A stretch of DNA of 64,000 nucleotides from Halomonas halmophila (GTDB lineage Bacteria > Pseudomonadota > Gammaproteobacteria > Pseudomonadales > Halomonadaceae): contig NZ_BJOC01000008.1 in NCBI RefSeq assembly GCF_006540005.1, forward strand, positions 1 through 64,000. Direction: 5' to 3'. Position 1 is the stretch's first letter, and each line of letters starts with the position of its first letter. Shown in pieces: positions 2,820-59,225 of this stretch. Position numbers and translations under genes: made by a program. The notes under the pieces are model-generated. The model saw nothing but the letters and a program-made list of their open reading frames with translations. It searched no databases and was not told the DNA's origin.

Positions 2820-2903
2820 AGCTGGAAGTCTGAAGCTTGAAGCTGGAAGGAACCCCCGCGTTTTGCGGCTTTTCTTTCAGCTTCCGGCTTTCAGCTTCCG
2901 GCT
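2820..2903. repeat. Long imperfect inverted repeat between dgcA and dgcB
   Basis: The left arm (2820-2850, AGCTGGAAG-type repeats) is complementary with few mismatches to the right arm (2874-2903, CTTTCAGCTTCCGG-type repeats). The centre holds a small hairpin, CCGC-GTTTT-GCGG, followed by CTTTTCTTTC. It fills almost the whole 109-base gap between two genes of one operon, so it could act as a partial terminator, an mRNA stabiliser, or be an interspersed intergenic repeat. Confidence 0.8.
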
Positions 2904-2923
2904 CGCCGATGAGGTGAGACGAG

Positions 2924-4918
2924 ATGCTCGATACCCTCCTGCCGATACTGATCTTCGCTGCCCTGGTGGTAGCGGCGATCGGCGCCTGGCGTCGCTCGCG
3001 GCTCTGGCGTCAGGGGCGCCCTGCCAGGGTCGACCTGATCAAGGGGCTGGCCGCCATGCCACGCCGCTATCTGGTGGATCTGCACCATGTCGTGGAGCGC
3101 GACAAGGTCATGTCGCATACCCATGTAGCCACGGCCGGCGGCTTTGTGGCGGCCGCCTTGCTGATGATCCTGGTACACGGTCTGGGACTGGCCGAGGGCG
3201 TGCTGGGCTGGCTGCTGCTGCTGGCGAGCACCTCGATGTTCGTGGGCAGCCTGTTCGTGGCGCGGCGTCGCCGTAATCCGCCGGCTCGCCTGTCACGCGG
3301 CCCCTGGATGCGCCTGCCGAAAAGCCTGATGGCGTTTTCGGTCAGCGTCTTCATCATTACGCTGCCGAGTGTCGGCCTCTTGCCCGAGGGGCTGCTCACC
3401 GGTGCTGTCGGCACGTTGTTTGCCCTGATCCTGGCGGCACTCGTCACCTGGGGGCTCGCCGAGATGCTGGTCGGCATGGGCTGGGGTGGCCCCATGAAGC
3501 ACGCCTTCGCGGGGGCGCTGCACCTGGCCTTTCATCGTCGTCCCGAACGCTTCTCGACGCGTGACGGGGGAGAAGGGCGCTCCACCGGCCTCAAGGCGCT
3601 GGATCTGAATGATCCCGATGCCACCCTGGGGGTCGAGAAGCCGAGCGATTTCACCTGGAACCAGCTGCTGGGCTTCGACGCCTGTGTGCAATGCGGCCGC
3701 TGCGAGGCGGTATGCCCGGCCTTTGCCGCCGGTCAGCCGCTCAACCCCAAGAAGCTGATCCAGGACATGGTCGTCGGCCTGGCCGGTGGCAGCGATGCCG
3801 AGTACACCGGCAGCCCTTATCCGGACCGCCCGGTGGGGGAGCACCACGGCACGCCGCATGGACCGATCGTGGCACGTGACGGCAAGGCCCTGGTGGACTC
3901 CGAGACCCTCTGGTCATGCACCACCTGCCGTGCCTGCGTGGAAGAGTGCCCGATGATGATCGAGCACGTGGATGCCATCGTCGACATGCGCCGTTTCCTG
4001 ACCCTCGAGCAGGGCGAGACGCCCGGCAAGGGCGCCGAAGTGCTCGACAACCTGATCGCCACCGACAACCCGGGTGGCTTCGATCCCGGTGCGCGCATGC
4101 ACTGGGCGGCGGACCTGGAACTGCCGCTGATGTCCCAGCGCGGCGAGGCCGAGGTGCTGTTGTGGCTCGGTGATGGTGCCTACGACATGCGCAACCAGCG
4201 CACCCTGCGCGCCTTCATCAAGGTCATGCGTGCGGCCGGTGTCGATTTCGCCGTGCTCGGTGACGAAGAGCGCGATAGTGGCGACGTGGCCCGCCGCCTG
4301 GGCGACGAGGCGACCTTCCAGTCGCTGGCCCGACGCAATATCGCCACGCTGTCGCAGTATCGCTTCGAGCGCATCGTGACCTGTGACCCGCACAGCTTTC
4401 ATGTGCTGGGCAACGAGTATACCGAGCTGGGCGGGGACTACCATGTGTCCCACCACAGCACCTTCATCGGTGAGCTCTATGATGCCGGCCGCCTTGCTTT
4501 CCGCCCCTGGAAGGGAGGACGCGTGACCTATCACGATCCCTGCTACCTGGGGCGCTACAACGGCGAGTTCGAGGCGCCGCGCCATGTGCTCAGGGCGCTG
4601 GGCATCGAGGTGGCCGAGATGCAGCGTTCCGGCTTCCGTTCGCGCTGCTGTGGCGGCGGTGGCGGTGCTCCGATCACCGACATCCCGGGCAAGCAGCGCA
4701 TCCCCGACATGCGCATGGGGGATGTTCAGGAAACCGGTGCCGACATGGTGGCCGTGGGCTGCCCGCAGTGCACGGCGATGCTGGAAGGTGTCGTCGACAG
4801 CAGCGCCGACGTGCGTGATATTGCCGAGCTGGTGGCGGATGCGCTGGTGCACGAGACCCCCGCCGCGACGGGTGGCGCGTCAGCCGACGCGCCGTCACTG
4901 GCCAAGGAGGTGGCGTGA
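2924..4918 (+). CDS. dgcB: Dimethylglycine demethylation protein DgcB (membrane iron-sulfur oxidoreductase)
   Basis: A 664-residue membrane protein. The N-terminal 200 residues contain several hydrophobic segments. Two ferredoxin-type cysteine clusters follow: C-V-Q-C-G-R-C starting near residue 254 and C-T-T-C-R-A-C near 332. The C-terminal half carries two CCG-type heterodisulfide-reductase-like domains (DPCYLG near 539 and C-C-G-G-G-G near 575). The layout fits a membrane electron carrier linking dimethylglycine oxidation and the ETF pair to the quinone pool, as proposed for Pseudomonas DgcB. Its TGA stop overlaps the ATG of the next gene, so translational coupling with the ETF genes is likely. 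Confidence 0.92.
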   Translation: MLDTLLPILIFAALVVAAIGAWRRSRLWRQGRPARVDLIKGLAAMPRRYLVDLHHVVERDKVMSHTHVATAGGFVAAALLMILVHGLGLAEGVLGWLLLLASTSMFVGSLFVARRRRNPPARLSRGPWMRLPKSLMAFSVSVFIITLPSVGLLPEGLLTGAVGTLFALILAALVTWGLAEMLVGMGWGGPMKHAFAGALHLAFHRRPERFSTRDGGEGRSTGLKALDLNDPDATLGVEKPSDFTWNQLLGFDACVQCGRCEAVCPAFAAGQPLNPKKLIQDMVVGLAGGSDAEYTGSPYPDRPVGEHHGTPHGPIVARDGKALVDSETLWSCTTCRACVEECPMMIEHVDAIVDMRRFLTLEQGETPGKGAEVLDNLIATDNPGGFDPGARMHWAADLELPLMSQRGEAEVLLWLGDGAYDMRNQRTLRAFIKVMRAAGVDFAVLGDEERDSGDVARRLGDEATFQSLARRNIATLSQYRFERIVTCDPHSFHVLGNEYTELGGDYHVSHHSTFIGELYDAGRLAFRPWKGGRVTYHDPCYLGRYNGEFEAPRHVLRALGIEVAEMQRSGFRSRCCGGGGGAPITDIPGKQRIPDMRMGDVQETGADMVAVGCPQCTAMLEGVVDSSADVRDIAELVADALVHETPAATGGASADAPSLAKEVA

Positions 4919-44555: not shown

Positions 44556-44600
44556 CATGACGCGGTTCCCTCTCTCTAACTAGATACCATCTCTCCTAAC

Positions 44601-44635
44601 CGGCCACAAACATTCCATCAGGCGGTTTGTGGCCG
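44601..44635 (-). terminator. Hairpin at the 3' end of the IS110 gene
   Basis: CGGCCACAAAC (44601-44611) pairs with GTTTGTGGCCG (44625-44635), an 11-bp perfect stem that encloses the transposase stop codon. No U-tract. It could protect the transposase mRNA or be a subterminal repeat of the element. Confidence 0.65.
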
Positions 44636-45595
44636 ATATTCGGTCTGGGTCTTGAGGACACCGTAGGCGATGTGGAGCAGCTTCCGCATCGCCGCCCCCA
44701 AGGCCGCCATTTTGCTCTTGCCGTTTGTTGTAAGCCGCTGGTATAGCGCCGAGATATCCGGATTCCGCCTCAGCCCGACAACGGCTGCCATGTATAGGCT
44801 TTGACGCAGTTTCGGATTGCCGGCTTTCGACAAGCGGGGACGCCCCCGGACGGAGCTAACCGATTCCCAACTGACGGGCACGAGCCCCGCAAACGCTGCG
44901 GCCTGGCGAGCGCTTTCGAAAACACGGCTACGCAGCATCGCCAACAGTCGGAGAGATACCGCAGGGCCAACGCCAGGAATCGTTTGCAGCAAGGCACGAT
45001 CCTGCTTCAAGTCAGGGTGCTGATCGAGGTTGTCATCGATCTCCTGCTGGAGACGATCTCGCTCACGCGTCAACGCCAGCAGAATGTCATCGATCGAGCG
45101 GAGGATATCGGTTGCCATGGCGAACTCGGCTTTCTCGCGCCGGTTTCGCTCACGCTGAATGTCCTTGTCCAGAGCATCGAGTCTCGCTGCCAGAGCTTTG
45201 AGCTTGCGGACTTCCTCGGGCTCTGGCTGCCAGGCTTCAGGGCGTTGAGTCGCGCCATACCGGGCCAGAACCACACTGTCCTTCTTGTCCGTTTTGCCAC
45301 GTATCCCCAGGCCACGGGAGAAATCGCGCACTTGCGCCGGATTGAGGACATAGACCTGGATGCCGGCAGCATGCAGCCAATACGCGAGCGTTTCGTGATA
45401 GATACCAGTGGCTTCCATCAACACATACAACTGATCCAGTGACTCCCCGGTCTGGTGTTCGAGCCATTCCACCAAGCGAGGAAAGTCCTGCTGGCGATTG
45501 GCGAATACTCGGGTCTTGACCTTGCCGGTCGTCACATCGCGTAGCCAGGCGCAGTCGAGTTTCTGCTTGCTGACGTCAATGCCAATTACTGCCAT
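44618..45595 (-). CDS. IS110 family transposase (DEDD recombinase)
   Basis: A 325-residue transposase. The N-terminal RuvC-like DEDD domain shows Asp7 (GIDVSK), Glu61 (MEATG), and Asp103/Asp106 (KTDKKD). A coiled linker with LRSIDDILLALTRERDRLQ follows, and the C-terminal Transposase_20 domain contains LLQTIPGVGPAVSLRLL and a serine-rich RGRPRLSKAGN segment holding the expected catalytic serine. All motifs are intact, so it looks functional. ATG 45595 (MAVIGIDVSK) is the family start. IS110 enzymes work with an element-encoded bridge RNA. It lies between sixA and the hexarate cluster. Confidence 0.93.
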   Translation of the reverse strand: MAVIGIDVSKQKLDCAWLRDVTTGKVKTRVFANRQQDFPRLVEWLEHQTGESLDQLYVLMEATGIYHETLAYWLHAAGIQVYVLNPAQVRDFSRGLGIRGKTDKKDSVVLARYGATQRPEAWQPEPEEVRKLKALAARLDALDKDIQRERNRREKAEFAMATDILRSIDDILLALTRERDRLQQEIDDNLDQHPDLKQDRALLQTIPGVGPAVSLRLLAMLRSRVFESARQAAAFAGLVPVSWESVSSVRGRPRLSKAGNPKLRQSLYMAAVVGLRRNPDISALYQRLTTNGKSKMAALGAAMRKLLHIAYGVLKTQTEYRPQTA

Positions 45596-45788
45596 GATCT
45601 CGTCGCCTTTCCTTGTTCGTGCAGCCTCACCCCGATTCCGGAGGGGCTTGGATACCATTCAAGCTATCGAGATAGAGGGCATCAGGGGGCATAATCTAAG
45701 AACCAGGCTATAACGCCTCAGGCTTTGTGGATGCTCACCCTGATGCCAAGGCCTGCTGGTAGCTAATCAACAAGCCCGGAGAGACACA
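45596..45788 (-). ncRNA. Candidate IS110 bridge RNA region
   Basis: The 193 non-coding bases upstream of the transposase are where IS110-group elements (such as IS621) encode the bridge RNA, transcribed in the same direction as the recombinase. A perfect 10-bp inverted repeat, GGCATCAGGG/CCCTGATGCC (45678-45687 and 45738-45747), closes a 50-base region, and further GC-rich pairing is possible near 45635-45650. Placement follows family knowledge; the exact RNA ends and guide loops were not resolved. Confidence 0.4.
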
Positions 45789-45933
45789 AGGCTTTGTCCG
45801 AAAAGTCGACGAGCGAAGGATAGACAAGGCAAAAATCAGCGAAAAAGCGGAGTTTACGAGAGTTGTAAATGAGCATGTTGAGCTGATTTTTAACGCCGTA
45901 TAGCCGAGCGCAGTCAGTTTTCAGACAAAGCCT
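45789..45933. mobile_element. MITE-like palindromic element, 145 bp
   Basis: AGGCTTTGTCCGAAAA (45789-45804) and TTTTCAGACAAAGCCT (45918-45933) are 16-bp terminal inverted repeats with one mismatch. Inside, AAAAATCAGC (45831-45840) pairs with GCTGATTTTT (45882-45891), and TTTAC with GTAAA near the centre, so the element can fold into one long hairpin. It is non-coding. No target-site duplication is obvious. It is probably mobilised in trans by a DDE transposase recognising GGCTTTGTC ends. It abuts the IS110 element on one side and supplies part of the stop codon of the AEC permease on the other. Confidence 0.8.
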
Positions 45934-46891
45934 ATATCACGCCGGCGATACGCAGCATGAAAACACCGGCCGTCACCGTGATACTGGCCATCAGGGTGGT
46001 CAGGGCAATGATGTTGGCGGTGAGGGTTTCATCACCGCCCATGGCCTTGGCCATCACGAAAGCCGCAGCCGCCGTGGGACTGGCGAAGAACAGGAACATG
46101 ACGCCCAACTCGCGCCCTTCGAAGCCGACCCACCAGGCCACGGCGGTCGCCAGTATCGGGATGCCGACCATCTTCCACAGGCTGGCGCCCAGTGCGGCGG
46201 CATAACTCCTCTTCAGCGCGCGCGTCGACAGCGTGGCCCCGATGCAGATCAGCGCAAGGGGCAGGGTCAGCGAGGCAAAGTAATCGCCGCTGGTGGCAAG
46301 CCACACCGGAAGTTCGATCTCCACAATCGCCAGAGGTGTGGCCCCCAGGACCGACAGAATCAGAGGGTTCTTGCCAATGTGTCCGGCGATGCTGCGCCAT
46401 TGGGCATGGCGCGATCCTCCGCCATGTGGCCGGTAGATGCTGAGTATCACGACGGACAGGATATTGTAGGTCAGGATGACCACGCCGAGCAGCAGCCCGC
46501 CCAGGGACACGCCGGCCTCGCCATACATGCCGTGGGCCAGCGCCAGGCCGACGATACCGCAATTGCCGCGAAAGGCGCCCTGCACATAGACCCCGCGCTG
46601 ATGCCTGGGCACCCGCCAGGCCGCCCAGCCCCAACTGATCAGGAAGCTGGCCAGCGTCGCCAGTGCGAAGAACAGCAGCAGCCAGGGATCGAGGGTGCTG
46701 TCCAGATCCGTCCCGATCAGGCTCAGAAAGATCAGCGTCGGCAGGGTGCCATGAAAGACCAGCCGGGAGGCGGTGTTGACGAAAGCCTGGTCGATCCAGC
46801 CCAGCCGCTTCAGGCCAACGCCGATGAACACCATGGCAAAGACCGGCAGGGTGATGTCCAGTGTGGAGAGGAAAAGCTGCGTCAATGGCAT
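45932..46891 (-). CDS. AEC family permease
   Basis: A 319-residue auxin-efflux-carrier-type transporter with about ten hydrophobic segments. The N-terminal half has LPVFAMVFIGVGLKRLGW and RGNCGIVGLALAHGMYG; the C-terminal half has LPLALICIGATLS and FFASPTAAAAFVMAKAMGG. Bacterial AEC members carry organic acids such as malate or malonate. It is divergent from the 2-hydroxyacid dehydrogenase gene across a region with operator-like site A, so hexarate-linked regulation is plausible. The TAG stop lies across the edge of the MITE, so the native C-terminus may have been changed by a residue or more. A truncated paralogue lies at 58665. Confidence 0.9.
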   Translation of the reverse strand: MPLTQLFLSTLDITLPVFAMVFIGVGLKRLGWIDQAFVNTASRLVFHGTLPTLIFLSLIGTDLDSTLDPWLLLFFALATLASFLISWGWAAWRVPRHQRGVYVQGAFRGNCGIVGLALAHGMYGEAGVSLGGLLLGVVILTYNILSVVILSIYRPHGGGSRHAQWRSIAGHIGKNPLILSVLGATPLAIVEIELPVWLATSGDYFASLTLPLALICIGATLSTRALKRSYAAALGASLWKMVGIPILATAVAWWVGFEGRELGVMFLFFASPTAAAAFVMAKAMGGDETLTANIIALTTLMASITVTAGVFMLRIAGVI

Positions 46892-58594: not shown

Positions 58595-58664
58595 GGAGGC
58601 GTACAGGGCCTGGAGCACGAGCCAGTGCAATACCGAGCCATGCATGCCCGTCTGCCGATTGGGG

Positions 58665-59225
58665 TCATATCAGCCCCAGCAGCAGGCCCCCGGAGATCCC
58701 GATGATCAAGGGGTTGGTCGCCACATCCTTGAGAATGGCCCCGGGGTGGGAATTGACCAGCGGGCTGTAGACGGCCAGCACGATGGCCGACAGTACCAGG
58801 TTGAGCATGATGATGCCGCCCGCCATGACGCCACCCAGGGAAAGCCCCAGCTCACCGTACATGCTGGTCGCCAGGGCCAGCCCCATGATGCCGCAGTTGC
58901 CGCGAAATGCCGCCTGAACGTAGACGCCACGTTGTTGCCGGGGGCAGCGGTATAGCGACCAGGCCCAGATCAGCACGAACATCAGCGCTGAAATGATCAG
59001 GTAATACACCACCAGTCCGAGCTGGAAGTCCTCACCGGGTTCGGCACGCAGAATGCTCAGGAAAAGCAGGGCCGGCATGGTGACCTTGAATACCAGACTG
59101 GAGGCGGTATTGATGAAGGCCTGATCGATCCAGCCCAGGCGTTTCAGCAGGACTCCCATGAACACCATGGTGAATACCGGCAGGCTGACATTCAGTGTAT
59201 CGAGCAGCAGGTGAGTCATTGGCAT
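58665..59225 (-). pseudogene. Truncated AEC family permease
   Basis: About 186 residues that match the N-terminal 58% of the AEC permease at 45932-46891 (VSLPVFTMVFMGVLLKRLGWIDQAFINTAS, RGNCGIMGLALATSMYG). The frame ends after ISGGLLLGLI. Roughly 130 C-terminal residues are missing, and only 70 bases separate the stop from the FMN dehydrogenase gene, so the 3' part was deleted rather than frameshifted. Five membrane helices cannot form the full carrier. Its promoter side still carries operator-like site C. Confidence 0.8.

Follow-up and report, generated by a model that had tools for sequence, protein, structure and literature searches.

A miniature IS5-type element at the stop codon of a Halomonas halmophila permease gene and an adjoining IS110-family element with a predicted guide to its end

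In a 64,000-nucleotide stretch of the Halomonas halmophila genome (positions 1 to 64,000 of contig NZ_BJOC01000008.1, assembly GCF_006540005.1, hereafter the window), a miniature inverted-repeat transposable element (MITE) of IS5-family type lies between the stop codon of an AEC-type permease gene and an IS110-family insertion sequence (IS). With a probability of roughly 0.9, the MITE was moved into the permease stop codon by an IS5-family transposase, and the IS110 element was later guided to the far end of the MITE by a predicted bridge RNA. In this history the MITE would have been mobilised in trans by the transposase of a 912-bp IS5-family partner and would have entered the TA of the permease TAG stop, which fits a CTAG/YTAR target, with its terminal G restoring the stop. 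The IS110 element would have inserted afterwards at the far MITE end, using a left guide of nine nucleotides, of which one matches a base of the duplicated TA and eight match the final eight bases of the MITE, together with a right guide in keeping with the YTAR flank. The reading draws on what can be compared in the sequences themselves, namely the copies, ends, TA duplications, partner, empty site, IS110 joints and guide-target covariation. We infer that the guide RNA is produced and bound, that an IS5 transposase moved the MITE, and that the insertions took place in this order.

Comparison with other copies placed the MITE proper at 45790-45932 (143 bp, GGC...GCC), an assignment based on its arms, fold, flanks and the other copies. 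A preliminary description of this DNA had recognised the element itself correctly but gave it 145 bp, of which the first and the last base belong to the target, base 45789 (A) lying within the duplicated IS110 core AG. The 16-nt arms of that description (45789-45804 and 45918-45933, one mismatch) are present in the sequence, as is the nested internal complementarity (45831-45840 with 45882-45891), and within the revised bounds the terminal inverted repeats measure 15 nt with one mismatch (45790-45804 and 45918-45932), separated by an imperfect hairpin. Folded as single-stranded DNA, 45790-45932 reached -29.8 kcal/mol against -13.99 +/- 2.49 for shuffled sequences (z -6.35, 0/200). This strong hairpin, the lack of a transposase gene and the several copies agree with the earlier classification as a non-autonomous palindromic element and with membership of a MITE family present in multiple copies. 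The 145-bp query gave 20 matches in the same genome (E <= 0.001), where the preliminary description had left room for there being no other copies, and the MITE is thus more than a chance arrangement. The target-site duplication is TA on both sides (plus strand), the right copy at 45933-45934 also serving, on the other strand, as two of the three bases in the TAG codon that ends the permease gene, and the left copy at 44581-44582 being parted from the MITE by the IS110 element, with its A forming part of the IS110 core AG.

The likely autonomous partner of the MITE, judged by its ends, is a 912-bp IS5-family element that was detected where two IS110 copies in other genomes adjoin an element with the same end as the MITE and a transposase gene; the autonomous transposon for which the preliminary description had suggested a search thus has a likely candidate. 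Matches to the partner stretch occur in 43/90 genomes of the genus, own genome included, with one match in the own genome, and the 23 measured copies range from 902 to 918 bp, 16 of them being exactly 912 bp. Its two reading frames match DUF4096 and DDE_Tnp_1, and the NCBIfam model IS5_3 scores above its cut-off. TA is present on both sides of 17 of the 23 partner copies, all 17 having the form YTA..TAR, and on both sides of 24 of 49 MITEs, 22 of which have YTA..TAR at both sides; some of the MITEs without a double TA have an IS110 element on one side. The MITE and the IS5-family element therefore have both the target preference (YTAR) and the duplication (TA) in common.

The neighbouring IS110-family element occupies 44584-45788 on the minus strand (1205 bp excluding the 2-bp core, identified from its junctions and transposase), with bounds and core set by comparing the ends of copies. 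The core dinucleotide AG (CT in transposase orientation) is at 44582-44583 on the right-end side and at 45789-45790 on the left-end side, where the MITE begins with its G, and the direct contact between the two elements described earlier is thereby borne out. The transposase (44618-45595, minus strand; DEDD_Tnp_IS110 and Transposase_20) scored 225 bits against NF033542 (cut-off 140), its closest solved relative is IS621 (E 8.5e-62), and a start at MAVIGIDVSK is preferred by inference over the longer open reading frame 44618-45658. Matches to the IS of any length were found in 32/90 genomes of the genus, and matches to its left non-coding end in 32/275 genomes of the family, covering 7/24 genera. 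Assignment to the IS1111 family (IS4321/IS5075 type) was considered and rejected, as the guide region lies upstream of the transposase gene, not downstream.

This upstream non-coding region (45596-45788, minus strand) is a predicted bridge RNA on the basis of its relatives and of the fold of 45595-45790 (z -2.93), in which a stem-loop is accompanied by a target loop with GGCATCAGGG/CCCTGATGCC as its closing stem. Within the predicted target-binding loop (45678-45747, minus strand; closing stem 45678-45687 with 45738-45747) sits the sequence of the MITE end, since the putative left target guide (45720-45728, minus strand) is identical, on the plus strand, to AGGCTTTGT at 45789-45797. The candidate right target guide (45696-45699, minus strand) reads CTAA in the window and CTAG in most copies, which fits the IS5 target preference, both sides being visible in only four loci. 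With the left guide spanning a TA base and the MITE end, and the right guide the YTAR flank, the predicted 11-bp target would be the point where an IS5-type end meets its target-site duplication. Unlike the target loop, which is seen in the predicted fold, the donor loop was read by eye; its candidate left guide (45650-45658, minus strand) agrees at 8/9 bases with the IS right end plus core, and its candidate right guide (45612-45616, minus strand) is complementary at 5/5 bases to the core plus IS left end.

Guide and target were then compared across IS110 junctions, from which left ends with more than nine mismatches in their last 39 bases had been removed (L083 and distant IS110 copies) and junctions sharing their first 24 target bases with another had been dropped. 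The 30 distinct junctions start with AG in 29 cases and correspond to IS5 or MITE ends in 18. Over 24 guide-target pairs, the matches at positions 1 to 10 numbered 23, 24, 22, 20, 20, 20, 22, 21, 19 and 2, so that agreement ends after nine bases. At positions 3-9 there were 144/168 matches against 127.4 +/- 2.7 after permutation of the pairs (0/100,000 as high), and the excess persisted when the dropped L083 was added (146/175 against 129.1 +/- 2.7, no permutation as high), when the 17 distinct pairs were taken alone (91/119 against 77.4 +/- 2.8, no permutation as high), and among the 10 pairs with variant guides (53/70 against 41.1 +/- 3.3, 11/20,000 permutations as high). A sequence-guided link between the IS110 element and its targets is, on these comparisons, well supported. 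The system offers a natural example, spread over several genomes, of what appears to be bridge-RNA targeting: variants of the guide can be compared directly with variants of the target, and the IS110 target is itself the product of another transposon's insertion.

Several observations weigh against this reading. The pairs are related copies, so the permutation figures are not strict probabilities, and the guide pattern could not cover the more distant IS110 copies L080, L087, L111 and L112. The right guide of the window agrees with its actual flank (CTAG) at only 3/4 bases. By pattern, 12 of the 30 junctions are not IS5 or MITE ends: those of L091 and L092 resemble decayed ends, that of L126 is an IS end-to-end joint and that of L187 lacks AG. 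The guide-target fit of L074, L113 and L180 improves with a shift, L232, which is an IS5/MITE end, mismatches its own guide at three positions, L115, scored as an end, retains only about its first 15 bases, and the target of L083 (AGGATACC) is unmatched by the guide of L083. Finally, two MITEs (L004, at C19:155787, and L066, in G009:C15) carry ACACAAGGC without an IS110 element. The flank of these two MITEs is ACACA-AGGC, as at the IS110 joint, with no IS110 gene in the adjoining stretch that was read. At L083/L122 and L126, the IS110 left end is followed directly by right-end-like sequence (AGGATACC, AGATACC), an arrangement that recalls a joint of the tandem or circle type.

Two other explanations of the arrangement were weighed. 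The preliminary description had suggested that IS110 targets palindromic DNA, and it is conceivable that palindromic or hairpin DNA is recognised as such and the sequence match is incidental, given that the MITE is a strong hairpin and that REP sequences and attC, targets of IS1111 relatives, can also fold (PMC11187229). However, the same IS is found at ends of the 912-bp IS5-family element (L071, L072, L157, L179, L185) and at guide-matching sites that are not such ends (L085, L100, L105), and target variants track guide variants; recognition of shape is accordingly very unlikely. The identity of the guide with the MITE end, together with the guide-target covariation, points to targeting by guide sequence, so the suggestion of targeting stands while the cue becomes the terminal-repeat sequence plus duplicated TA, read through a predicted guide, rather than the palindrome. 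The overlap between the stop codon and the MITE edge had likewise been taken to mean that the MITE supplied two of the three bases of the permease TAG stop, and possibly that it had replaced the native C-terminus. A stop or C-terminus made by the MITE is barely credible in view of the orthologues, and the first of these ideas is refuted. Homologues of the permease (Mem_trans; 45932-46891, minus strand) are present in 89/90 genomes (E <= 1e-40), and at all 30 orthologue loci read, window included, the permease ends at the equivalent residue with or without the element; counted from a conserved motif, 29 of the 30 are equally long and the other (L202) is one residue shorter, within the motif. 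One relative (G035) has an uninterrupted site with a TAG stop, and its alignment with the predicted empty site (the left flank through TA joined to the right flank) spans 241 gap-free columns, 226 of them identical, with a score of 211. The native TAG stop therefore predates the MITE and was its target, and because the TA at 45933-45934 is target duplication, the MITE contributes one stop base (G) rather than two.

Another MITE occupies the same permease stop at L215 (G066:C1, near 1153964), with an extra insert in its 3' arm like that of L012 and L338, and the finding of a MITE at the stop in 2 of the 30 permease loci is attributable to CTAG at the stop codon being a good IS5-type target. The window also contains a second AEC-like stretch (58662-59225, minus strand) with 48% identity over query residues 1-192 and one internal TGA.

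Beyond this locus, MITE matches were found in 42 of 58 genomes searched, own included, and in seven plasmid records (six Pseudomonas, one Halomonas); none of the phage records searched matched. Of the 20 matches in the own genome, six have GGC..TGTC..GAAAA-type ends on both sides (by pattern), another six have a different end pair, GAGGGTGTTTACAAA, with an interior that is still alignable, and the remainder are partial or decayed. This second type, which shares its interior with the window MITE, is found at C8:67898-68014, C13:20032-20143, C13:88576-88691, C3:134820-134927, C24:15527-15601 and C18:28878-28952 (L009-L012, L014 and L015), and matching three-base TNA repeats flank five of the six. 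A search of 19 genomes and some contig ends for an autonomous partner with GAGGGTGTTTACAAA ends returned only MITE-sized pairs or unpaired ends. On a P. amygdali plasmid (L069), an IS630-family transposase gene at 2897-4143 stops 30 bp short of a family MITE, and a short sequence present on both sides of that gene adjoins the CTA flank of the MITE.

The part of the MITE that would surprise a specialist is its interior, which holds a hairpin core shared by distant bacteria. In the window this core lies at 45818-45906 (minus strand), with internal loops UCA/CUCC and GCGUU/GCCUUG, and even with E values up to 1 allowed it is the sole match in the window to model R2 (74.9 bits, E 1.1e-17). An exact scan of genome contigs for AAAATGCTCATTTAC-n3-8-GTAAACTCCGC gave at least 119 stretches, and the core matches listed include Pseudomonas, Halomonadaceae, Nitrosomonadales, Mariprofundales, Oligoflexia, one Acidobacteriota metagenome-assembled genome (MAG) and many Bacteroidota MAGs, the Nitrosomonadales and Mariprofundales carriers also being MAGs. 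The terminal repeats of these core-bearing elements vary (TAGCAGGCCGTTGAAAAAC, TTACTGTGTCACA, GAGGCTGAATAAAAAG, GGGAACCTCTAAAAA and others), their detection being automatic with four mismatches allowed and returning none for part of the cores. Because the scan itself prescribed the core, finding it conserved in the scanned set is no evidence; the pattern placed no constraint on the stems or on the flanking GCGTT and GCCTTG, and the lower motif is missing in some Alistipes copies. With a covariance model, matches were obtained in 52/200 genomes of the phylum, own included, in 26/109 genera, and among these matches the apical stem changes by paired substitutions. Rfam searches of the window MITE (E up to 1) returned nothing but a miRNA model, whose 21.2 bits fall short of its cut-off of 69, and searches of nine loci at the gathering cut-off returned three tRNAs and no usable match.

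Covariation in the stems was counted in three alignments. For the first (A1), 12 of 54 dereplicated cores were excluded for inserts or rearranged arms and L260 and L283 were also removed, and the 40 diverse sequences left showed 139 two-sided cells against 56.7 +/- 5.8 in shuffles and 38-84 in slid controls. The second (A2), 41 sequences picked from the pool of A1 and the 30 model hits, left out 15 of the 40 A1 sequences, some without the lower motif, and so flatters the consensus. The third (A3) took all 42 + 30 sequences without choosing (n=72) and gave the same result: 262 two-sided cells against 91.6 +/- 7.8 in shuffles, which ignore kinship, and 77-119 in slid controls, with a score of 0.332 against 0.106. 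In A3 pairing holds in 99.7% of the cells of the apical helix, and all five of its pairs show two-sided changes. The internal loops of the core are thus fixed while its stems co-vary. The most likely reading would be that the fold of the core plays a part in how such elements spread or are tolerated. An optional 16-nt hairpin module, CTCG-N4-CGAG-YCC-NN-TC, follows CTC in the core of some elements (L002, L003, L008, L017, L041, L073, L097, L234, L237, L259, L261, L330 and others), and all 15 of its occurrences in 1.8 Mb of fetched loci fall in MITE cores, 13 on the 5' side and two on the 3' side.

A competing account, which is possible though the more doubtful of the two, is that the interior appears conserved because the MITEs are young and have spread between species, with the arms kept alike by palindrome correction, a process known in principle, rather than by any function of the fold. 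It gains from the Bacteroidota core records found all being MAGs, which allows for mis-binned contigs, and from the shuffle controls ignoring kinship. Nor are G.U cells more frequent than A.C cells (17 vs 27 in A1, 17 vs 25 in A2 and 22 vs 60 in 122 partly related copies), which gives no RNA-strand preference for the modelled strand; if anything, these counts point to the opposite strand, the dereplicated sets being too small to decide. However, correction should erase mismatched loops, yet the loops are the best conserved part and the stems change on both sides (n=72), and the core is constant while the terminal repeats differ between groups. That the core instead marks where translation of a small peptide begins (GGAG ... 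AUGAGC) is highly improbable: the other strand does have GGAG upstream of AUG or GUG, with codons 2-4 mostly SI followed by L or F, but the frame is open in 45/96 against a mean of 43.8 in shuffled arms, and a coding micro-ORF was set aside on this ground, a long peptide being improbable already.

The core also bears a likeness to the ERIC repeat of E. coli. The ERIC core sequence used here is present in 5375/5426 E. coli genomes. ERIC was absent from the building of models R1 and R2, and one copy scored 19.8 bits against R1 (E 5.5e-5 in 644 bases) and was the best of 13 matches to R2 in 40,044 bases, albeit weakly (20.0 bits, E 0.0027), the runner-up lying within a gene (16.1 bits, E 0.028). 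The unpaired motifs CUGCGUU, UCA/CUCC and CGCCUU agree between ERIC and the core, in order. ERIC was picked because the likeness had been noticed, which makes the agreement a lead rather than proof, and the evidence for a relationship is weak but suggestive. A wider proposal, tentative and held at slightly less than even odds, is that the core defines a cross-phylum family of transposable hairpins with fixed loops UGCUCA/CUCCGC and GCGUU/GCCUUG and varied IS-type ends, of which ERIC would be a member, the core being the persistent unit that is re-clothed with the ends of whichever IS is active. A hairpin core common to the MITEs of distant bacteria would make the origin and persistence of ERIC-like repeats testable.

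No description of the IS110/MITE pairing or of the shared core was found among the papers listed in the literature searched, most subscription journals lying outside its coverage; this does not prove that none exists. Four known systems offer the nearest comparisons. MITEPsy1 of Pseudomonas syringae (PMC3189936) is, like the window MITE, short, geneless and IS5-like, with a duplicated CTAG or YTAA target, but has other ends and a length of 100 nt. ERIC (RU-1; PMC2759123) is a MITE-like hairpin with TA ends and a TA duplication, as in the window MITE, although its stems differ from those of the window core. IS4321/IS5075, of the IS1111 family, target the terminal inverted repeats of Tn21-type transposons (PMC11187229) and are alike in that they too belong to the IS110/IS1111 group and insert into the terminal repeats of a different mobile element; in the window, by contrast, the IS110 non-coding region is upstream and the host element is of the IS5 family or a MITE. 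The fourth, IS621 (PMC11208160), has a nine-base left and a four-base right guide. It shares with the window element an IS110 recombinase, an upstream non-coding region that bears guides (predicted in the window), a nine-base left and short right guide and a CT core in transposase orientation, but its guide reads a REP sequence, whereas the predicted guide of the window IS110 reads the end of an IS5-type MITE together with its TA duplication.
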